Below, one piece after another: positions 3,706 to 27,330 of a stretch of DNA of 64,000 nucleotides; position 1 is the stretch's first letter; each line of letters begins with the position of its first letter. The stretch comes from Sternotherus odoratus (taxonomy: Eukaryota; Chordata; Testudines; Kinosternidae). Location: positions 183,712,920 through 183,776,919 of the forward strand of contig JAVMKO010000002.1 in the NCBI GenBank assembly GCA_032164245.1, in the 5' to 3' direction. Made by a program: the position numbers and the translations under genes. The notes below the pieces were generated by a model. The model saw only the letters and a program-made list of their open reading frames with translations. It searched no databases and was not told the DNA's origin.

Positions 3706-5170
3706 TGCACATAAGCAGCTTATTCTATTCTAGGCCTATGAGAGAGGATCTTCCCCCCCACTCTAAACTCTAGGGTTCAAGAGGGGGGTCTCTCATTGGC
3801 CACTTAACTGTAAGCTACTTTCCCAGCCTAAGTTAAATCTTCCCCCCCCCAAAAAAAACCCCACACTTTACCAGTTGGGTATTGGGGTCCCGCTGCCACC
3901 ATTCATGTGAATATCCAAGACCCTGGAGGGGGCACATGAACACCCCAAACTCCCCCTCCCTCTCCCTGAGAGATCAGGACACTCAGACACTGCTCCACCC
4001 CTCCCTTTCCAGCCTAGGAGAGAGAGTGAACGCAGCACACAGGCTCATTAGCTGTGAGCCTGCCAAATTAAAAGCTAGGACAACTTTAAGGGAATAACCA
4101 AACACTTTTTATAACAAAAAAGGTTTAATAAAGAAAAGAGAAAACTTACAACTAATACAACTTCACAGATATAAAGCTTTCTAACCCCTCCTTCAAGATT
4201 TCTCCCCCTGAGGAAGGTAGTGACACTTTAAATCAGGTACAAAGCTTATGAAATCCATAGCTTTACTTACTGTTCATCTAACTTATGGATATATGAGGGA
4301 AAAGGAGGAGATGGGGTTCCATAGCTGGAAAAGGGATCGAGTCAGCCCGAAATCCTCCGGATGAACTAAAGTGAAACTAAACTCCCCCTCCCATAAGAAT
4401 GAGAGCCCTTGACGTCACTCTTCTCTCCTGTTCAGTTAACCCCTAACAGGTAAAACAGCACTCCAAGGCACTTCACACTCATGACAAGGCCCAATATTTT
4501 TCTCATCGCTATGACATTTCATTCTCCACTCACACTAAGCTAAACACCAGTGTGACTCCACTGACTTCAGTGAAATTACTGCTTATTCTCAGTAGTGTAA
4601 GAATATAATTAGGCCCAATATGTACATAAGTCCATGGGCCATTGTCTATAAATCCATGATTTTTAGATGTTGGGGGATTTTGGTGTGCGAGGAGATGGGG
4701 TTTTTTTTTGGCTGTGATGAGAAACAGTTAAATTTCACTGCAAAATTACACCTTGGGATGAACAGGAGTTAGGAGACAACATTGAAGAGGGATCCATGAA
4801 AAAGAAACCAATGGATCCTTAGCTAATTTCCTAGTAACCTCTCCTAAAGATTAAAAAATATATAGTTAATTAGAGGAGATGGACTGATTTTAGAAAAGTA
4901 AACAATCCAGTATGGGAACTCCTGTGTTCAAACATTCGTTGTTATCCCAATAAATGCAGTGCTCTTGAAAATTCTATGTATACATATAAGGGAAGAGTCT
5001 GGAAGGAGGGAATTCAGAGACTGCCTTTGTATCATTTCCTCCAGGCTCACCTAGAGAGAGCTATTTAATGAACAATTATATTTTGACCTAACTTTCACAG
5101 TGCAGAGTGCCCACAACTGTCATTGGCCTCAGTGGGAGTTGAGAGTTCAGCACTTCTGAAAATGAAATTA
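3706..5170. other. Non-coding stretch, possible unclassified repeat
   Basis: No coding evidence. The 4081-4460 part (GGTTTAATAAAGAAAAGAG and the following text) resembles, in general make-up, 6690-6800 and 21170-21230, which suggests parts of one or more decayed interspersed repeats. I could not set ends. Confidence 0.35.
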
Positions 5171-5526
5171 CCGTATTTTTCGTCCCATAGGACGCTCCGG
5201 CGTATAAGACGCCCCCGCGTTTTCGGACAAAAAAAAAAAAAAAAAGCGCCGCTTTTTTCGCGCCGCTCTCCCGTCCCCGCCGCGTGGCGGGCTGCTGGGA
5301 GCGCGCCGCTCTCCAGTCCCCGCCGCGCGGGCGGGCTGCTGGGAGCGCGCCGCTCTCCAGTCCCTGCCGCGCGGGCGGGCTGCTGGGAGAGCGGCGCGAA
5401 AAAAGCGGCGCTTTTTTTTTTTTTTTTTTTTTTGGTCCGGCCGATATTCGGCGTATAAGACGCCCCCCCTAATATTGAAAGTATTTTTGGGGGTTAAAAA
5501 GGCGTCTTATACGCCGAAAAATACGG
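5171..5526. mobile_element. Tc1/mariner-like MITE, 356 bp
   Basis: Perfect short terminal inverted repeats CCGTATTTTTCG (5171-) and CGAAAAATACGG (-5526) are flanked on both sides by TA, the duplicated dinucleotide of Tc1/mariner elements. Next to the ends are GGCGTATAAGACGCC-type motifs in both orientations. Inside is a second inverted pair: a GCGCCGCTTTTTTCGCGCC-type arm near 5243-5270 and its complement near 5390-5415. Between them are about three GC-rich units around CGCCGCTCTCCAGTCCC. It has no transposase gene, so it is non-autonomous. Open frames across the GC-rich part are compositional artefacts. Confidence 0.8.
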
Positions 5527-6147
5527 TATTCTCCATCATTTGATCTGTTTGGAGAGATGTTAAAATGTCTGGGGCCAATTCACAGTTAGTCTAACTCCAT
5601 TGTTCCATGCTTGCTAAAGTGATATTGTGCACTTAAATGGCAAAATAATTGCTAGCATAGCTGGACACAACTCTGTTGACTTCAATTAATTTTCTATTTG
5701 ACTAGGTGAAAAAACTGATGTGATTTACTTTAACAAAGTTTTGTAAGATATTGATTATGTGATGTGTTAACATAAATTCATACATTTGCTATACATTGCA
5801 ACAGAAGTTAAAGAGTAGGCATTTCAAACTATGTTAAAACATGAATCATCAGGTGCTGTGATAGTGTAAAAAAAAAGGCAAATAAATGTTACAGTACATA
5901 CAATCTCAGTCTTTCCATACACATATTTATTTGTGATATCTGTGATAGTGATAGCTGAAAATAGGAATGGTCAAACTGGTTTGGATAAAATATTCTATTG
6001 TGTTCTATACAGCTTCTTATATGACTTTCATCACCGTAGTGTCATTAGTACTTCCAGTAGTACATTAAGTCAAGTGAATAGTATGTCATGTGAGGTATGT
6101 TCTTTCTCTCATCCTGCCCAAATACTGAGTGTTTATTGTTAAATTAG
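5527..6147. other. Non-coding AT-rich stretch
   Basis: Nothing recognised on either strand. Confidence 0.5.
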
Positions 6148-9805: not shown

Positions 9806-10232
9806 TAGGGGCATGTCTTCACTACCACTTTAAATCGATGTTAACGACGTTAGGTCGAAGTAAACGTGTACCTGTCTTCACATACATGCCCTTAACGTCG
9901 ATGTAAAGGGCCTTAAAGATCGATCTTGGCACTCCAGCCTAACCAGTGACATAAGGCTAATCTCGACATTCCAAGCTCGACCGTGGGCTAGTGAAGACGG
10001 AACCCGACATTAATAGCCTCCAGAGGCTGTCCCACAATGCTCCATTCTGACCGATCTGGACTGCCTCACTACTGCTCCACTGTGACCGCTCTGCACTGCA
10101 CTCTGAACTCGCTGCTCTGGCCAGGTAGATAAGACCCGGGAACATTTGAATGCCATTTCCTGTTTGGTCAGCGTGGCCAGCTCACCTGAACTGATCAGTC
10201 GCCATTCAGAGCAATCAGCAGCACTAGCCGCC

Positions 10233-10782
10233 ATGCAGAGCTCAGCATCACAGGAATCCATGATGAGCTCATCTACCCTGGAGACCAGCCAGAGGAGAAG
10301 AGCTCCAGCATGGTCCACTCGTGAGGTGCTGGATCTCATCGCTATCTGGGGAGAGGAATCCGTGATGTTGGAACTCCGCAACAACAAACGGAATGCCAAC
10401 ACCTACGGAAGAGTCTCCAAGGCCATGCTAGAAAGGGGCCACAACAGGGACACCACACAGTGCCGCGTGAAAATTAAGGAGCTGCGGCAATCGTTCCAGA
10501 AAGCCAAGGAGGCAAACGGACGATCAAGGGGCGCGCCACGGACATGCAGGTTCTACAATGAACTAAATGCGATAATGGGGGGCGCCCCCACCACCATCGC
10601 GCCGGTTTGCGTGGACTCCACCAATGGGATCATCGTCAGGGAGGAGACTGATTCCGAGGAGGACGAGCATGAAGAGGAAAATCTCACGGAGCAGCAGGAG
10701 CCCAGCGGAGAACCCGTGTACCCAGAGAGCCAGGAGCTGTTTGTCACCCTGGAGCCAGTACCCTCCCAAGCCTCCCAGGGGG
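10233..10782 (+). CDS. Harbinger A Myb/SANT-like protein, exon 1
   Basis: In Harbinger elements a Myb/SANT-like protein works with the transposase, in fish helping it enter the nucleus and bind element ends. I start at the ATG at 10233, which has a strong Kozak context (GCCGCCATGC); the frame is open further upstream, but without an ATG. Residues about 25-120 form the trihelix-like domain: PAWSTREVLDLIAIWGEES, a Q-C-R-V-K-I-K-E-L-R helix and a TCRFYNEL segment. An acidic Glu-rich region follows. The exon ends at a consensus donor (G|GTAAGTG, 10782/10783). Joining its single leftover base to the acceptor before 11926 gives an in-frame Asp-Glu-Gln. Exon 1 has no stop or frameshift. Reading through the donor gives only a few extra residues. 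The matching donor in copy B supports real splicing. Confidence 0.85.
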
Positions 10783-10836
10783 GTAAGTGTTTCTTTTTTA
10801 AGTGATTACATGACGCGTGATTTTGTAAAGGAAGCA

Positions 10837-10842
10837 TTTATT
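10837..10842 (-). terminator. Poly(A) signal of the third Harbinger ORF, copy A
   Basis: AATAAA on the minus strand, about 52 bp after the stop of the 96-codon frame and still inside the SANT intron. The same signal sits at the same distance in copy B. Confidence 0.6.
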
Positions 10843-10893
10843 AATGAGTAACTTGCCCTAAGGACTTAGCGTGCTTTCATTGCTGGTCAATTT

Positions 10894-11184
10894 CTACTCA
10901 AAGAGTTTGTCAATATACTCCGGGATTGACCAGAAGTCCTCCGCGGACATTTCAAGGAAGCTATCCAGGAGGTAGCGATGAATCCAGCGCAGCAGATTTC
11001 TGGGGAGAGCCACCTTATGTGGTCCCCCGTGATAGGACACCAACCCACGCCACGAAAGTAGTAAGTTGTCTGGTATCATTGAGCAGGCTAGCATTGCGGC
11101 GTATGGACCAGGATTTTGCATGGACTCAAGGAGCATGCGCTCCCTATCTCTCCGAGAAATTCTCAGCAAAGTGATGTCATTCAG
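10894..11184 (-). CDS. Third Harbinger ORF (96 codons), copy A
   Basis: This frame lies inside the SANT intron, on the opposite strand and in the same direction as the transposase. It aligns with 25949-26239 of copy B over all 96 codons without gaps. Comparing by hand I count 22 nucleotide differences, 16 replaced residues and 4 silent codons. The ATG of copy B is CTG here (11182-11184), so this copy lacks the presumed start, although the frame stays open upstream to 11571 through the GC-rich tandem repeat. Features include MLACSMIPD, SWRGLVSYHGGPHK and an ending EYIDKLFE. I do not recognise the family. It could be a spliced exon, since an AAACAG/GCAACC acceptor-like string precedes it in both copies, or a non-coding remnant. 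Confidence 0.5.
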   Translation of the reverse strand: MNDITLLRISRRDRERMLLESMQNPGPYAAMLACSMIPDNLLLSWRGLVSYHGGPHKVALPRNLLRWIHRYLLDSFLEMSAEDFWSIPEYIDKLFE

Positions 11185-11293
11185 GGTTGCCTGTTTGAGA
11201 TACGGACTGCAATTAGTAGGGAGATAAAAAGATTCCCAGCTGCAAAGTACTCTTTTCTGCTGAGGACCGACCAACCGCCCCCCCCCCCCCCCG

Positions 11294-11525
11294 CCCGTAG
11301 CGGTAGCTAGCAGGGAATCTGAGGAGTCTGCACGCGGTTTCCTCCGCTTCAGATCCAACGCGCACCCCCACCCCCACCCCCAGCCCGTAGCGGTAGCTAG
11401 CAGGGAATCTGAGGAGTCTGCACGCGGTTTCCTCCGCTTCAGATCCAACGCGCACCCCACCCCCCCCCACCCCCAGCCCGTAGCGGTAGCTAGCAAGGGA
11501 TCTGAGCAGTCTGCACGCGGTCTGA
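11294..11525. repeat. GC-rich tandem repeat in Harbinger A, about 2.5 units of 90-93 bp
   Basis: Units start with CCCGTAGCGGTAGCTAGCA at 11294, 11384 and 11477. Each runs through GGAATCTGAGGAGTCTGCACG to a C-rich (CCCCCA) spacer of variable length. It lies just upstream of the third open frame on the minus strand. Copy B has the same unit, with about two copies. It could be a promoter-like array or simple slippage. Confidence 0.85.
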
Positions 11526-11925
11526 AGAGCCCCAAAAAGACCTTAGCCCTCAGCAAGAGTTTTTTTGGCATTTGCTTTGCAGTTTGAGGTTTCAGTGAGA
11601 GCCAGCCACGCGGTGGGGGGAAGGGGACAGGGTTGCTCTACAGTATGCAGGCGCCACTTTTAACTTACCATGGCCGGCTGCACGGTGATTTCAGAAGCCG
11701 TCTTGGGCTGAGGCACGCATATGTGTCTGAGATGCTCTGACTTTTCTGTGAGCTTTTAGGTGTAGAACATGACCTTGTACAGAAATCATATCAGGCCTCT
11801 GAATACTGAGTTTGCAAATGGCATAGTACTCCCATTGTGTACCGTCCGAGACTGCATCTGCCTCCTAACCTTGAATGTATCTGTCTCATAACTTTCAAAC
11901 TTTCTTTTCCCACACTCGCCCACAG

Positions 11926-12453
11926 ATGAACAACAAGTATTATGTCACAATCCCCCGGCCTCCTCCTCCCGCCCTGCACCGCAGAAAAGAAAGCGTAAAA
12001 AGAAAACGCGAACGCGCAATGAGATGTTCACTGAACTCCTGGAGAACTCGCGCGCTGAGGCAGCCCACCAGACGGACTGGAGGGAAAGAATGATACAGGC
12101 AAGGGAACGAGACAGAGAGGAAAGGAATCGAGAGAGAGAGGAAAGGAATCGAAAAGAGGGAAGCCGCTGCAGAACAGAGGGAACAGCGTGAGGAAAGACA
12201 CATGGATGCTTTCCTCCGCATAATGGAGGACCAGAGCGACATGCTGCGATCTCTGGTGGAGCTGCAGCATGCCCAAAGACCACCTCTGCAACCCCTGTGT
12301 AACCACCTCCCCCCCTCCCCAACTCCCATAGATTCCCCACCCAGACGCGGGGTGAGAACCCGGGGGGGCAAGCTCCGTGGGCCGCTCCACTCTACCCCAC
12401 AAGCCAGCAGAAGCAGCAGCAGCAGCAGGCTGACGTTCTCGGAAAACTTTTAA
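11926..12453 (+). pseudogene. Harbinger A SANT protein, exon 2 (frameshifted)
   Basis: The acceptor CTCGCCCACAG ends at 11925. In frame with exon 1, the exon encodes a basic cluster (QKRKRKKKTRTR), a likely nuclear localisation signal. A long charged helix with MFTELLENSRAEAA and many R-E-R/E-E-R-N repeats follows, probably a coiled coil. The frame stops near 12190. The remaining coding sense, including ending LLRSLVEL-like leucines (MLRSLVELQ) and a Ser-rich tail to TAA at 12451-12453, continues in another frame. There is thus a frameshift in the repetitive GAAAGGAATCGA stretch near 12120-12160. The matching exon in copy B has the same layout. Confidence 0.8.
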
Positions 12454-12591
12454 AAGCTGCTGTGTCTTGCCCACCCCTCCTCTCCCCCCTTCCCACCCCC
12501 CTCCTTTGCCCGCTCCTCCCCCACTGCGACTGCCGGTTTCCCTCCAGGATACCAGGACAGTGATCCCCTGTATTTGTATTTCCGATTAACC

Positions 12592-12629
12592 AATAAAGGA
12601 ACCATGATTTTTCAAACAGTGATTTTATT
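12592..12629. terminator. Opposed poly(A) signals, Harbinger A
   Basis: AATAAA on the plus strand at 12592-12597 serves the SANT gene. AATAAA on the minus strand (12624-12629) serves the transposase. The two genes are convergent and their transcripts would overlap at their 3' ends. Confidence 0.8.
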
Positions 12630-12639
12630 TCCTCTGCAA

Positions 12640-12740
12640 GCATGGGGATGGGGGAGGAAAAGCATGGGGAGGGGGGAGGGGGAAGGGAAAGCATGGGGAG
12701 GGGGGAGGGGGAAGGGAAAGCATGGGGAGGGGGGAGGCAA
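12640..12740. repeat. Purine-rich minisatellite in Harbinger A
   Basis: About four units of roughly 27 bp around AAAGCATGGGGAGGGGGGAG lie in the transposase 3' untranslated region. Copy B lacks the expansion, so it arose in or was kept only by copy A. Confidence 0.8.
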
Positions 12741-12788
12741 AGAGGGTTCAAGGGCAGCAGGCTTAGAGCACAGCAAGGGAGCAGATTC

Positions 12789-14166
12789 TCAAACGCCATC
12801 TCGGCCACTCATAAAACTGTCTTTCAAGGCGTCCCTGAGGCGCAGGGCCTCACGGTGGGCTCTTTTACTTTCCCTGCTGTGTGGCTGCTCATAAGTAGCA
12901 GAAAGTAAATTTGCCTCTGCCTCCCAGCCCGCCATAAACGTTTCCCCCCTGCTCTCACAGATATTGTGGAGCACAGAGCAAGCAGCTATAACAATGGGGA
13001 TATTTCTCTCGCGGATGTCTGAGCGAATCAGTAAGGAACGCCATCTCCCCTTCAAGCGGCCAAATGCACACTCCATGGCCATTCTGCACTTGCTCAGCCT
13101 GTAGTTGAACAGCTCCTGACCCCTGTCCAGGGCTCCTGTGTAGGGCTTCATAAGCCAGGGCATTAGGGGGTAGGCTGGGTCCCCAATGATCACGATCGGC
13201 ATTTCGACCCCCCCCCACAGAAATTATCTGGTCGGGGAAGAAAGTGCCTTGCTGCAGCTGTCTAAAAAGCCTAGAGTTCCTGAACACTCGAGCGTCATGA
13301 AGCTTTCCCGGCCACCCCACGTACAGGTCGGTGAAACGTCCCTTGTGGTCAACCACTCCTTGCATGACCATTGAGTAATATCCCTTCCGGTTTCTGTACT
13401 CGGCGGCCTCGTGGTCCGGTGCCAGGATAGGGATATGAGTCCCATCTATAGCCCCACCACAGTTAGGGAATCCCATGGCGGCAAAGCCATCTATTGTGGT
13501 TTGCAGGTTTCCGAGGTTTATAACCCGGTGTAGCAGCCGCTCGACGATTGCCCTGCTTACTTGCATCACAGCAAAGCCCACTGTAGACCTACCCACCCCA
13601 AACTGATTCGCGACTGACCGGTAGCTGTCTGGCGTTGCAAGCTTCCAGAGGGCTATCGCCACTCGCTTCTCCACTGTAAGGGCCGCTCTCATTTTGGTAT
13701 TCCTGCGCTGGAGGGCCGGGGACAGCAAGTCACAAAGTTCCATGAAGGTGCCCTTTCGCATGCGGAAGTTTCTGAGCCACTGGGAGTCATCCCAGACCCG
13801 CAGCACTATGCGGTCCCACCAGTCCGTGCTTGTTTCCCTGGCCCAGAATCGGCGTTCGATGGCATGAGCCTGCCCCATTGCCACCATTCTTGACAGATTG
13901 TCAGTCGCCCTACTTGCAAAAACGGCAGTGTCCATGTCGTCCCCGCTGTGCACGTCAGTGTTCCTGTCGTCCCCGCTGTGCACGGCAGTGTCCCTGTCGT
14001 CCCCGCTGTCCTTGTCCATCTCCTCCTCACTGTCGTCGGGTTCCGGAAAGCGCAGTTCTCCCCGGATCGCATTCCTCCTCTGCAGACGGTGCAGCAGGAA
14101 CTCTGCAACCGTGATCGAGGTCCTCACAACAGCCATTACTGCAGCCGTGGTGTCAGCGGGCTCCAT
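12789..14166 (-). pseudogene. HARBI1-type transposase, Harbinger A (one frameshift)
   Basis: DDE nuclease that would cut and join Harbinger ends. The ATG is at 14166, matching the start in copy B (MEPAD). An acidic N-terminal region carries three near-identical ten-residue units (HSGDDRNTDV type). An HTH-like stretch follows (SYRSVANQFGVGRSTVGF). The catalytic motifs are present: Asp in GGAIDGTHIPI, Asp in GWPGKLHDARVF and, after the break, Glu in MECAFGRLKGRWR. The reading frame changes in a C/G run near 13205-13215, just before MPIVIIGDPAYPLMPW, so the first and second catalytic parts lie in different frames. The C-terminal part runs to the stop at 12789. It is inactive as it stands but otherwise nearly complete. 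Confidence 0.9.
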
Positions 14167-14528
14167 GCTTGCAATGCTATGGCGTTAGCACGGCGGAGAA
14201 AGGGCGCGAATTATGGGATGCCTACCTACAGTGCACTGCTCGGAATGGGGGTGGGCGGCGCGGAAAAAGGGCGCGAAATTTGGAAATGCCTACCCATAGT
14301 GCAGCACTCGAAATGGTGCCTGCTGGGGGATCAGGGAACTGTGGGATAGGTACCCAGAGTGCAACGCTCGTCATGTCGACGCTTGCAAAAGTTTTGCGGA
14401 CAGACACTGTCGACGTACTGTGCGTAGCTGTGCCTAGTGAAGACACACAACATCGACTGTATACCGTCGCGTTCACAACATCGACATAAAGGAAATCGAA
14501 CTACTGCTGTAGTGAAGACATACCCTAG

Positions 14529-22812: not shown

Positions 22813-23176
22813 TAAGGGTATGTCTTCACTACAGCAGTAGGTCGATTTCCTTTAATTCGATTTTGTAAAGCAGACTGTATACAGTCGATTTTGTGTGTCC
22901 CCACTAAGCACAGCAAAGCACAGCAAGTCGACAGTGTCTGTCCGCACAACTTTTGCAAGCGTCGACATAACGAGCGTTGCACTGTGGGTACCTATCCCAC
23001 AGTTCCCGGAGCCCCCAGCAGGCACCATTTCGAGTGCTGCAGTATGGGTAGGCATTTCCAAATTTCGTGCCCCTTTTCCGCGCCGCCGACCCCCATTACG
23101 AGCGGTGCACTGTGGGTAGGCATCCCATAATTCGCGCCCTTTCTCCGCGCCGCACTAACGCCATAGCACTGCAAGC

Positions 23177-24499
23177 ATGGAGCCCGCTGATGCCACGGCT
23201 GCAGTAATGGCCGTTGTGAGGACCTCGAGCACGGTTGCGGATTTCATGCTGTACCGTCTGCAGAGGAATGCGATCCGGGGAGAATTGCGCTTTCTGGAAC
23301 CCGACGACAGTGAGGAGGAGATGGACGAGGACGTGCACAGCAGGGACGATGGGGACACTGACGTTTTTGGAAGTGGGGCGACTGACAATCTGTCAAATTT
23401 GGTGGCAATGGGGCAGGCTCATGCCATCGAACGCCGATTCTGGGCCAGGGAAACAAGCACGGACTCGTGGGATCGCATAGTGCCGCGGGTCTGGGATGAT
23501 TCCCAATGGCTCAGAAACTTCCGCATGCGAAAGGGCACCTTCATGGAACTTTGTGACTTGCTTTCCCCGGCCCTCCGGCGCGAGAGTACCAGAATGAGGG
23601 CGGCCATCACAGTTGAGAAGCGAGTGGCGATAGCCCTCTGGAAGCTTGCAACGCCAGACAGCTACCGGTCAGTCGCGAATCAGTTTGGGGTGGGTAGGTC
23701 TACAGTGGGCTTTGCTGTGATGCAAGTAAGTAGGGCAATCGTCGAGCAGCTGCTACCCAGGGTTATAAACCTCGGAAACCTGCAAGCTACAATAGATGGC
23801 TTTGCCGCCATGGGATTCCCTAACTGTGGTGGGGCTATAGATGGGACTCATATCCCTATCCTGGCACCGGACTACGAGGCCGCCGAGTACAGAAACCGGA
23901 AGGGATATTATTCAATGGTCATGCAAACAGTGGTTGACCACAAGGGACGTTTCACCGACCTGTACGTGGGGTGGCCAGGAAAGCTTCATGACGCTCGTGT
24001 GTTCAGGAACTCTAGGCTTTTTAGACAGCTGCAGCAAGGCAATTTCTTCCCCAACCAGAAAATTTCCGGGGGGAGGGGTGTCGAAATGCCGATCGTTATC
24101 ATTGGTGACCCAGCCTACCCCCTAATGCCCTGGCTTATGAAGCCCTACACAGGAGCCCTGGACAGGGGTCAGGAGCTGTTCAACTACAGGCTGAGAAAGT
24201 GCAGAATGGCCGTAGAGTGTGCATTTGGCCGTCTGAAGGGGAAATGGCGTTCGTTACTGATTCGCTCAGACATCAGCGAGAGAAATATCCCCATTGTTAT
24301 TGCTGCTTGCTCTGTGCTCCACAATGTCTGTGAGAGTAAGGGGGAAACATTTATGGCGGGCTGGGAGGCAGAGGCAAATTTACTGTCTGCTACTTACCAG
24401 CAGCCAGACAGCAGGGAATGTAGAAGAGGGCACCAGGCCGCGCTGTGCCTCAGGGATGCCTGGAAAGACAGTTTTATGAGTGCCCGACATGGCGTTTGA
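23177..24499 (+). CDS. HARBI1-type DDE transposase, Harbinger B, 440 aa
   Basis: This nuclear enzyme excises and inserts the element at TNA sites. The single open exon starts at the ATG at 23177 (MEPADAT), conserved with copy A. An acidic region covers residues about 41-65 with one SRDDGDTDV unit (three in copy A). An HTH-like segment lies near 162-184 (SYRSVANQFGVGRSTVGF). The catalytic triad candidates are D222 (GGAIDGTHIPI), D272 (GWPGKLHDARVF) and E347 (VECAFGRLKGKWR), with a conserved GDPAYPLMPW near 310-319. The C-terminal conserved block IAACSVLHNVCE lies near 376-387. The length is usual for the family plus its N-terminal extension. AATAAA follows 80 bp after the stop. No stop, frameshift or missing catalytic residue is seen, so it may encode an active enzyme. 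Activity is not shown by sequence alone. Confidence 0.95.
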   Translation: MEPADATAAVMAVVRTSSTVADFMLYRLQRNAIRGELRFLEPDDSEEEMDEDVHSRDDGDTDVFGSGATDNLSNLVAMGQAHAIERRFWARETSTDSWDRIVPRVWDDSQWLRNFRMRKGTFMELCDLLSPALRRESTRMRAAITVEKRVAIALWKLATPDSYRSVANQFGVGRSTVGFAVMQVSRAIVEQLLPRVINLGNLQATIDGFAAMGFPNCGGAIDGTHIPILAPDYEAAEYRNRKGYYSMVMQTVVDHKGRFTDLYVGWPGKLHDARVFRNSRLFRQLQQGNFFPNQKISGGRGVEMPIVIIGDPAYPLMPWLMKPYTGALDRGQELFNYRLRKCRMAVECAFGRLKGKWRSLLIRSDISERNIPIVIAACSVLHNVCESKGETFMAGWEAEANLLSATYQQPDSRECRRGHQAALCLRDAWKDSFMSARHGV

Positions 24500-24578
24500 G
24501 AACCTGCTCCCTTGCTCTGCTCTAAGCCTGCTGTCCTTGCACCCTCTTTCCCTCCCCCCTCCCCATGCTTGCAGAGGA

Positions 24579-24616
24579 AATAAATTCACTGTTTTAAAAA
24601 TCATGGTTCCTTTATT
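24579..24616. terminator. Opposed poly(A) signals, Harbinger B
   Basis: AATAAA on the plus strand (24579-24584) lies after the transposase. AATAAA on the minus strand (24611-24616) lies after SANT exon 2. Only 26 bp separate them, as in copy A, so this tail-to-tail layout predates both insertions. Confidence 0.8.
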
Positions 24617-24769
24617 GCTTCATCAGAAATACAAATACAGGGGATCACTGTCATGGTAGCCTGGAAGGGGTGGGTGAGGAGGGAAACCAGCAGTCGCACT
24701 GGTGGAGGAGTGGACAGAGGAGGGGGGGAAGGAGGGAGAGGAGGGGGGCCAAGACACAGCAGCTTTTTA

Positions 24770-25260
24770 AAGTTTTCAGAGAACCTCAGCTTGCTGTTGC
24801 TTGTGCTGGCTTGTGGGGTGGAGTGGGTCGGTCCAGGAAGCTTGCCCCCCCCCGGGTTCTCACCCTGCGTTTGGGTGGGGAAGCTGAGTTGGGGAGGGGG
24901 GGAGGTGGTTACACAGGGGCTGCAGAGGTGATCTTTGGCCCTTCCCCACCAGAGAGCGCAGCATGTTGCTTTGGTCCTCCATTATACAGAGCAAAGCATC
25001 CATGCGTCTTTCTTCACGGTCCTGTCGCTGCAGCCACATTTCTTCCCTCTTTTCTGCTGCCTGCCTTGACTGTAGCGCTGATTCTAGCCTTGACTGTATC
25101 AATCTTTCCCTCCATTCCATCTGGCGGGCTGCCTCGGCACGCGAGTTCTCCAGTAGTTCAGTGAACATATCATCGTGCGTTCGCGTTTTCTTTTTACGCT
25201 TTCATATCTGCGATGCACGGCGGGAGGAGCAGGACGGGGGATTCTGAGATAATTGTTCAT
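24770..25260 (-). pseudogene. Harbinger B SANT protein, exon 2 (degraded)
   Basis: On the minus strand the acceptor CATTCGCCCACAG ends at 25261. The frame joined to exon 1 meets a TGA about 60 bases in (near 25200). In another frame the conserved coiled-coil part reads on: MFTELLENSRAEAARQ, then WRERLIQ, an E-K-R-E-E-M run, MEDQSNMLRSLV and a proline-rich tail. A T lost near 24768, relative to copy A, removes the natural stop. The exon keeps its identity but cannot make a full protein. Confidence 0.75.
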
Positions 25261-25639
25261 CTGTGGGCGAATGTGGGCAAAGAAAGTTTGAAAGTTATGA
25301 GACAGATACATTCAAGGTTATGAGACAGACGCAGTCTCGGACGGTACACAATGGGAGTACTATGCCATTTGCAACCTCAGTATTCAGAGGCCTGATATGA
25401 TTTCTGTACAAGGTCATGTTCTACACCTAAAAGTGACTGACTAGCTCACAGAAAAGTCAGAGCATCTCAGACACATATGCGTGCCTCAGCCCAAGACGGC
25501 TTCTGAAATCACCGTGCAGCCGGCCATGGTAAGTTAAAAGCAGCACTTGCATATTGTAGAGTAACCCCACCCCCTTCCCCCCACCGCGTGGCTCCCACTG
25601 AACCGCAAACTGCAAAACAAAGCCCAAAAATCTCTCACT

Positions 25640-25850
25640 AACGGCTAAGGGCTGGTTGGGGATCTTCAGCGGAGGCAAACCGCTTGCAGACTGTTCAGAT
25701 TCCCTGCTAGCTACCGCTTCGGGCTGGGGGGGAGGGGGTTGGGTGCGCGTTGGATCTGAAGCAGAGGCAAACCACTTGCAGACTGTTCAGATTCCCTGCT
25801 AGCTACCGCTACAGGCTGGCGGGGAGGGGGGGCGGGTGAGTGTTTTGGGG
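25640..25850. repeat. GC-rich tandem repeat in Harbinger B, about two units of 92 bp
   Basis: The complement of the copy A unit appears as GATTCCCTGCTAGCTACCGC, ending near 25718 and again near 25810. Each is preceded by AGGCAAACC-(G/A)-CTTGCAGACT and followed by a G-rich spacer. Unit number differs from copy A. Confidence 0.8.
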
Positions 25851-25948
25851 GGGGGGGCGGTTGGTCGGTCTTCAGCAGAAAAGATTACTTTGCAGCTGGG
25901 AATCTTTATCTCCCTACTAATTGCAGTCCGTATTTCAAACAGGCAACC

Positions 25949-26239
25949 ATGAATGACATCACTTTGCTTAGAATTTCTCAGAGAGATAGAGAGAGCATGC
26001 TCCTTGCCTCCATGCAAAGTCCTGGTCCATTCGCCGCAATGCTAGCCTGCTCAATGATACCAGACTACTTACTACTTTCGTGGCGTGGGATGGTCTCCTA
26101 TCACGGGGGACCACATAAGGCGGGTCTCCCCAGAAATCTGGTGCGGAAGATTCATCGCTACCTCCTGGATAGCTTCATTGAAATGTCCGTGGAGGACTTC
26201 CGGTCAATCCCGGAGTATATTGACAGACTCTTTGAGTAG
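25949..26239 (+). CDS. Third Harbinger ORF, copy B, 96 aa, unknown family
   Basis: The small open frame lies inside the SANT intron, antisense to it and in the transposase direction. It starts ATGAATGACATC in fair Kozak context (GCAACCATGA) and ends EYIDRLFE-stop at 26237-26239. AATAAA follows at 26291. About 30 bp upstream is CTACTAATTGCAG, which resembles a branch site next to an acceptor, and AAACAG lies directly before GCAACC; so it may be the last exon of a spliced gene. Residues 31-57 carry MLACSMIPD and SWRGMVSYHGGPHK. It has no signal peptide, membrane span or zinc-finger pattern. The same frame is fully collinear in copy A. I recognise no family. The pairwise difference pattern (16 replacement codons against 4 silent ones) does not show selection, so coding status is open. 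Confidence 0.6.
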   Translation: MNDITLLRISQRDRESMLLASMQSPGPFAAMLACSMIPDYLLLSWRGMVSYHGGPHKAGLPRNLVRKIHRYLLDSFIEMSVEDFRSIPEYIDRLFE

Positions 26240-26290
26240 AAACTGACCAGCAATGAAAGCACGCTAAGTCCTTAGGGCAAGTTAACCATT

Positions 26291-26296
26291 AATAAA
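26291..26296 (+). terminator. Poly(A) signal of the third Harbinger ORF, copy B
   Basis: AATAAA 51 bp after the stop of the 96-codon frame, in the same position as in copy A and still within the SANT intron. Confidence 0.6.
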
Positions 26297-26349
26297 TGCT
26301 TCCTTTAAAAAATCACGCGTCATGTAATCCCTTAAAAAGAAACACTTAC

Positions 26350-26902
26350 CCCCCTGGGAGGCTTGGGAGGGTGCTGGCTGCAGGGTGATAAACAGCTCCT
26401 GGCTGTCTGCTAACACAGTTTCTCCGCTGGCCTCCTGCTGCTCTGTGAAATTTCCCTCCTCCTCATTGTCGTCCTCATCAGAATCAGTCTCGTCCCTGAT
26501 GATTATCCCATCGGTGGAGTCCACGCAGACCGGTGCGATGGTGGTGGGGGCACCCCCCATTATCTGATTTAGTTCATTGTAGAACCGGCATGTCTGTGGC
26601 GCACCCCCTGATCGTCCGTTTGCCTCCTTGGCTTTCTGGAACGCTTGCCTCAGCTCCTTAATTTTCACGCGGCACTGTTGGGCGTCCCTGCTGTGGCCCC
26701 TTTCCAGCATGGCCTTGGAGACTCTTCCATATGTGTTGGCATTCCGTTTGTTGTTGCGTAGTTCCAACATCACGGATTCCTCTCCCCAGATAGCGATGAC
26801 ATCCAACACCTCACGAGTGGACCATGCTGGAGCTCTTCTCCTCTGGCTGGTCTCCAGGGCAGCTGAGCTCTACATGGAGTCTTGTGATGCTGAGCTCTGC
26901 AT
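26350..26902 (-). pseudogene. Harbinger B Myb/SANT-like protein, exon 1 (early stop)
   Basis: The ATG at 26902-26900 matches the copy A start (MQSSASQ). Codon 11 is TAG (26872-26870), where copy A has ATG. After it the frame stays open through the SANT domain (LDVIAIWGEESV, QCRVKIKELRQAF, TCRFYNEL) and the acidic region to the conserved donor (G|GTAAGTG, exon end 26350). An alternative downstream initiation cannot be excluded but would cut the domain start. Sequence otherwise closely follows copy A. Confidence 0.85.
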
Positions 26903-27330
26903 GGCGGCTTGTGCTGCTGATTGCTCTGAATGGCGACTGAGCTGTGCAGGTGAGCTGGCCACGCTGACCAAACAGGAAATGCTATTCAAATGTTCCCGGG
27001 TCTTTTCCTGTCTACCTGGCCAGAGCAGCGAGTTGAGAGTGCTGTCCAGAGCGGTCACAGTGGAGCAGTGAGGCAGTCCAGAGCGGTCAGAATGGAGCAT
27101 TGTGGGACAGCCTCTGGAGGCTATTAATGTCAGTTGCGTCTTCACTAGTCCACAATCGACCTAGAGAGGTCGATTTTAGCACTACTTCTCTCATCAGGCA
27201 GGAGTTATAAAGTTGATTTTGATGGCCCTTTAAATCGACTTTAATGGCATGTATGTGAAGACAGGTACACGTTTAATTCGACTTAACGTCGATAAAGTCG
27301 ACATTAAGTCGTAGTGAAGACATGCCCTAA

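Follow-up and report, generated by a model that had tools for sequence, protein, structure and literature searches.

We analysed a 64-kb stretch (64,000 nt; hereafter the window) of the genome of the turtle Sternotherus odoratus, contig JAVMKO010000002.1, which contains two PIF/Harbinger transposons, copies A and B. They are about 91% identical (416 differences at 4446 aligned sites), and each has a transposase gene and a two-exon Myb/SANT gene that converges on the transposase gene. The SANT intron of both copies encloses a further open reading frame. We regard it as highly probable that the turtle transposon has a third gene with this frame as its second and last exon, and we are equally confident that the third gene genuinely encodes a protein of the element. 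Judged from sequence, this Harbinger, which is common in turtles, very probably carries a small nested third gene for a protein of 99 residues that is conserved in other turtles. The observed basis consists of the frame itself, conserved splice and polyadenylation signals, many genomic copies, homologues in other turtles, and conservative substitutions. The third gene (exon 1, intron, exon 2, and AATAAA) is enclosed by the SANT intron and runs along the transposase strand, opposite to SANT. Its predicted parts are listed below; three dots indicate omitted sequence.

25262-25528, + strand: conserved 5′ region and exon 1; 25262 is the start of the conserved block, not a mapped exon end; the end is gccggccATG, with the ATG at 25526-25528
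25529-25942, + strand: intron, GTAAGT...TACTAAT...CAAACAG, with a variable tandem repeat of about 92 bp
25943-26239, + strand: exon 2, coding; spliced product MATMNDITLLRI...IPEYIDRLFE, 99 amino acids (aa)
26240-26296, + strand: 3′ untranslated region with AATAAA (26291-26296), which is present in all 39 B-type loci described below
10894-11190, - strand: exon 2 of copy A, MATLNDITLLRI...

An earlier note on this DNA had reported the frame at 25949-26239 (+ strand) and its partner at 10894-11184 (- strand). Both are present and gap-free and share a common stop, and a recount of the 98 codons that follow the acceptor reproduced the 22 base differences, 16 replacement codons, and 4 silent codons between the copies. 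AATAAA starts at 26291, 52 bases past the stop, as had been described. The idea of a terminal exon with an upstream branch site and acceptor was also supported: TACTAAT...CAAACAG/GC (a slash marks a splice boundary) precedes the frame in both copies; the acceptor is TACTAATTGCAGTCCGTATTTCAAACAG/GCAACC. From stop to stop the frame is longer (159 aa in B, 247 aa in A), so that no natural limit coincides with the ATG at 25949; on its 5′ side the frame is naturally bounded by the acceptor that precedes 25943.

The sense strand was scanned for donors of the GTAAGT and GTGAGT types, and only one of these, at 25529, is common to both copies, in the context gccggccATG/GTAAGT. The motif ATGGTAAGT occurs twice in the window when both strands are counted, once per copy at the homologous site. 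Joining this ATG to GCA ACC (A/C)TG AAT GAC preserves the frame, and the product would begin with MATMNDITLL (copy B) or MATLNDITLL (copy A). On this sequence evidence, the upstream exon very probably ends in the start codon, 25526-25528. Copy A has lost the internal ATG, which had been counted against coding; this objection loses its force, because splicing would very probably supply the ATG from the upstream exon. The region ATG/GTAAGT (25526-25534) is identical in both copies.

Copies A and B have only 6 differences at 268 sites in the block 25262-25528, all at or before 25375. The excess conservation relative to the element average is significant (p 3e-6, with one 11-bp indel after 25375 uncounted). 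Within the B subfamily the block is only moderately invariant, with 15.8 differences per kb, compared with 13.8-26.2 for other parts and 15.3 for the SANT 5′ region. The tandem repeat in the intron of the third gene (25660-25830 and 11279-11446) has a period of about 92 bp and direct matches of 79 bp, and copy B has fewer units than copy A.

Transcription would begin in or upstream of the conserved block, splicing would join 25528 to 25943, and polyadenylation would follow the AATAAA at 26291. We infer a separate short transcript and its translation. The predicted product of 99 residues would be all-helical and read MAT-(M/L)-NDITLLRI...VSYHGG..K..LPRNL.... Most likely, it would be an accessory factor that the transposon has kept, acting together with the transposase and the SANT protein in the nucleus or regulating both, e.g. 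as a small module that binds DNA or protein, and it would assist or adjust transposition. Because of the antisense nesting, the transcripts of the third gene and of SANT would overlap, and interference between them is a prediction.

The deepest evidence for coding comes from annotated proteins of other turtles. A protein search used a profile built from both copies, A and B, together with a hand consensus; of 737 candidates, three proteins scored at E<=10, and these are the homologues. Isoform X2 of Malaclemys terrapin LOC128826488 is 63% identical (E 2e-36) and aligns with all 98 exon 2 residues, gap-free and with the same end. Chelonia mydas UY3_00640 is 58% identical (E 3e-30) and lacks 3 internal residues. 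The third homologue is a fragment from a 965-base contig of the source "lgn", which we take to be assembled SRA reads; it is 59% identical (E 3e-21) and ends early. Among the motifs that every aligned row has unchanged are DITLLRI, MIP, VSYHGG, and LPRNL. The residues of the Malaclemys and Chelonia proteins before VTM are unlike each other (255 of 2000 shuffles were equally good), which would follow if the proteins are homologous only from the predicted acceptor onwards, i.e. from the exon boundary predicted in the window. Residues 4-33 of the Chelonia protein resemble the C-terminal part of the family itself (tblastn E 0.15 with copy B and 0.99 with copy A); we read this stretch as a possible second, degraded copy upstream.

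The replacements between the turtle proteins are conservative. For the 35 replacements from B to Malaclemys, the mean BLOSUM62 score is +0.31, compared with -0.60 and -0.65 in neutral simulations to the same distance; none of 1500 neutral runs attained it under either of two mutation models. Starting from the consensus, the mean is +0.36, a value attained in 1 and 0 of 2000 runs, respectively; for copy A alone it is +0.05. Openness alone is no proof at this distance, because a fifth to a quarter of the neutral runs were stop-free (364 and 298 of 1500; 533 and 442 of 2000) and database proteins are open by nature.

Copies were collected from the 1.76-Gb assembly that contains the window. There were 2434 first-look candidates for the B-type query and 1911 for the A-type query; 40 candidates of each type were scored, with values of >=98% throughout for B and >=99% throughout for A. 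The B-type sample comprises 39 loci, i.e. every scored locus except the window's own copy; the A-type sample comprises 10 loci, copy A of the window among them. The order transposase, SANT exon 2, exon 1 of the third gene, third frame, SANT exon 1 is found on one strand at 37 of the 39 B-type loci; the other two (L040 and L041) are without transposase, SANT exon 2, and third-gene exon 1. The third frame is free of gaps and stops at 36 of 39 B-type loci, an intactness that is biased upwards because similarity in just this region was the criterion by which they were chosen; one further locus has a stop and two have a 2-base gap, which at L029 is at the match edge. The donor ATGGTAAGT is kept at 36 of the 37 B-type loci that contain the region and at all 10 A-type loci, and CAAACAG and AATAAA are each kept at 39 of 39 B-type loci. 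Stops or frameshifts in a consensus of many copies, named in the earlier note as grounds for rejecting a gene, are absent from the consensus of the 39 B-type and of the 10 A-type copies.

The B-type loci differ by about 1.5-2.5% from their consensus, and four longer A-type copies are 2.5-3.4% apart and 1.0-1.7% from the window copy. The low divergence of these two many-copy subfamilies points to fairly recent activity. In all four longer A-type copies, the spliced SANT frame reads through once the 1.1-kb intron with the third gene is removed; the transposase reads through in none of the four. A G run, noticed by eye only, may be a frameshift hot spot.

Several observations weigh against a coding function. 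Those on omega near 1 on shallow branches, on the many long frames in the window, and on stop-free simulations would also fit a chance frame in intron DNA, open just because the copies are young. Between A and B, omega (the ratio of replacement to silent substitution rates, dN/dS) is 1.15 for the third frame, compared with 0.46 for the transposase and 0.50 and 0.56 for the SANT parts, and replaced residues are no fewer than neutrality predicts (16 vs 14.6 expected). Between the majority sequences of the subfamilies, omega is 0.82 (4.5 silent and 12.5 replacement changes). The changes of the third frame that are found in at least 3 of 39 copies, 5 silent and 12 replacement, equal the neutral expectation; the same count gave 42 silent and 59 replacement changes for the transposase and 22 and 32 for SANT exon 1, i.e. 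silent shares above the neutral value. Frame length is unremarkable on its own, as the window has 114 stop-to-stop frames of at least 90 aa, and, when neutral change was simulated to the distance between A and B, 1592 and 1779 of 3000 runs were free of stops. A cruder test with exact motifs recovered the third frame in 27 of 36 orientable B-type loci (the transposase reads through in 3 of the 36). The positions identical with Malaclemys are unclustered, the longest run of 7 being reached by 86% of random placements, and the location of the homologues in Harbinger elements is itself inferred. The biased choice of loci mentioned above belongs here as well.

The shallow branches give no support for coding and have little power. 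For the 17 changes of the third frame, an omega of 0.46 would give at most 4 silent changes with a probability of 0.14 and at most 5 with a probability of 0.29. With so few changes, an omega as low as that of SANT exon 1 is compatible with the third frame, and the dN/dS comparison that the earlier note had proposed is not decisive at this depth. Between the subfamilies, omega is 0.57 and 0.24 for the transposase parts, 0.49 for SANT exon 1, and 0.90 for SANT exon 2, so that on this branch an undisputedly coding exon looks no different from the third frame. In our own reading of the list, some of the 17 shared changes look like recurrent CpG changes. The replacements between A and B are mild, with a mean BLOSUM62 score of +0.25; of 3000 neutral runs, 106 and 42 attained this score. 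The other five frames showed no such pattern between A and B. For comparison, the corresponding values were attained in 0 of 600 runs for SANT exon 1 and in 46 and 26 of 300 for the transposase. The absent A/B signal is a question of power and time depth. The earlier statement that purifying selection is not apparent is correct for A and B and does not extend to greater depth, where the turtle homologues show constraint. Annotated proteins with 58-63% identity, the best of them with the same boundaries, strongly contradict a chance frame, and conservative replacements and conserved splice and poly(A) signals add to this; we consider that explanation highly improbable.

Two other origins of the frame were weighed. 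The transposase transcript could have it as an alternative last exon, with splicing past the transposase's own poly(A) signal, a reading that the common strand and the good acceptor would suit. However, no GTAAGT or GTGAGT donor in the transposase is common to both copies (that at 23726 is present only in B), the sole shared sense donor, 25529, follows an ATG that is Kozak-like and shares the reading frame of the exon, and an AATAAA follows the transposase stop, all of which makes such an exon very improbable. Transposons are known to capture exons, and a fragment of a host gene, carried without function for the transposon, would agree with the lack of constraint on the A/B branch. However, none of the three matches at E<=10 is named as a known host gene, no Pfam, NCBIfam, or PDB match exceeded the cut-off, and there is constraint between families, so that we judge a captured fragment to be very improbable. 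We prefer a third gene that belongs to the transposon.

The earlier suggestion that the element may encode a third protein, one outside the known families, is supported. The predicted structure is all-helical, and its pLDDT (a per-residue confidence score) rose from 53.7 to 69.3 on adding the 3 homologues. One weak, unconfirmed lead is a resemblance to the BEN domain, a small helical DNA-binding domain. Profile-profile comparison gave P values of 0.094 and 0.014 and, in a separate run, a count of 12 in 1438 shuffles (uncorrected); at the Pfam gathering score, BEN (PF10523) matched neither A, B, nor the hand consensus, nor any of the three homologues. Likenesses to the BEN domains of NACC1, BANP, BEND3, and Insensitive are the size, the all-helical prediction, and a loosely similar spacing of motifs; in contrast, no significant sequence or fold match was obtained, and the third protein has LPR where BEN4 has LDP. 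That the protein is a diverged BEN domain, nearest to BEN4 of BEND3, is a tentative and rather unlikely suggestion. It is somewhat more doubtful that the nested antisense gene encodes a new DNA-binding, diverged BEN-like protein that targets or de-silences the element.

The remaining features of the two elements are as follows.

22816-27327, + strand (transposase strand): PIF/Harbinger copy B, with terminal inverted repeats (TIRs) GGGTATGTCTTCACTAC and GTAGTGAAGACATGCCC, the target site duplication (TSD) TAA on both sides, and the domains DDE_Tnp_4 and Myb_DNA-bind_4
9809-14525, - strand: PIF/Harbinger copy A, flanked by CTA, as aligned to copy B
23177-24499, + strand: transposase coding sequence of copy B, DDE_Tnp_4
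26350-26902, - strand: SANT exon 1 of copy B from its ATG, with donor G/GTAAGT (26349-26344) and Myb_DNA-bind_4
24770-25260, - strand: SANT exon 2 of copy B, from the spliced translation; 3′ end approximate
25261-26349, - strand: SANT intron enclosing the third gene, from splice sites and spliced translation

PIF/Harbinger elements are marked by short TIRs and a 3-bp TSD, usually TWA. The elements of the window have a DDE_Tnp_4 transposase, a Myb/SANT second gene, and short TIRs with a 3-bp TSD; of four further copies, three have the TSDs CTA (L060), TTA (L061), and AAA (L059), and the fourth, L058, is without an exact 5′ TIR. The copy B transposase, the only one scanned for this domain, matches DDE_Tnp_4 with E 7e-34 and 117 bits (cut-off 24.8). 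The second genes match PF13837 with 68 and 72 bits (cut-off 27), and that of copy B matches Myb_DNA-bind_4 with E 9e-19. Both copies are damaged, A by a transposase frameshift (two frames) and B by a TAG after MQSSASQDSM in SANT exon 1 and another stop in SANT exon 2. The transposase matches 1793 proteins at E<=0.001, and the best 120 of the 1793 nearly all have turtle names. Two turtle gene models that carry host-gene names, lebercilin-like and TCEA1 (P0025, P0063), contain Harbinger transposase sequence, possibly by exonisation or annotation error. Elsewhere in the window, at positions 5087-5543, both strands have long frames that overlap and contain many runs of R, P, and K; this stretch resembles an inverted low-complexity repeat.

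If the third gene is real, a component of supposed two-protein systems has been overlooked, possibly a regulator or an anti-silencing factor, and the element would be a source of small turtle proteins that annotation has missed. If, in addition, the DNA-binding BEN-like reading were true, one vertebrate DNA transposon family would make three proteins from overlapping transcription units, and vertebrate Harbinger transposition might need a factor left out of reconstructions. Among the matches listed from the open-access literature, no description of a vertebrate Harbinger with a third gene was found, and the available passages of PMC5704228 and PMC5741667 do not mention one.

The earlier note's premise that vertebrate Harbingers are normally described with two genes agrees with the available passages of PMC9179366 and PMC4482050, and, in the corresponding part of PMC8437027, the Harbingers of sea kraits likewise have two open reading frames. 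The turtle element shares with these the DDE_Tnp_4 transposase, the Myb/SANT second protein, TIRs, and the 3-bp TSD. It departs from the canonical two-gene structure by a third conserved frame with splice signals, and it would thereby add a third, nested, spliced gene to the elements as described there. A Harbinger-type transposase is also mentioned for a Fanzor-bearing fungal element (PMC3627910, in the part available). Harbinger relatives with added genes have been described in fungi and oomycetes. According to the accessible sections of PMC12730594, the TET+ Harbinger/PHISTA elements of rust fungi encode a TET/JBP dioxygenase and a third protein, and oomycete HarbingerS elements, mentioned there, carry SET genes. 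Both resemble the turtle element as members of the Harbinger superfamily with added proteins. In contrast to it, HarbingerS adds an enzyme, a SET methyltransferase, and the TET+ elements, with TA TSDs, combine a TET/JBP dioxygenase with a third protein lacking Myb/SANT, whereas the turtle element would encode a protein of 99 aa beside an ordinary SANT gene.
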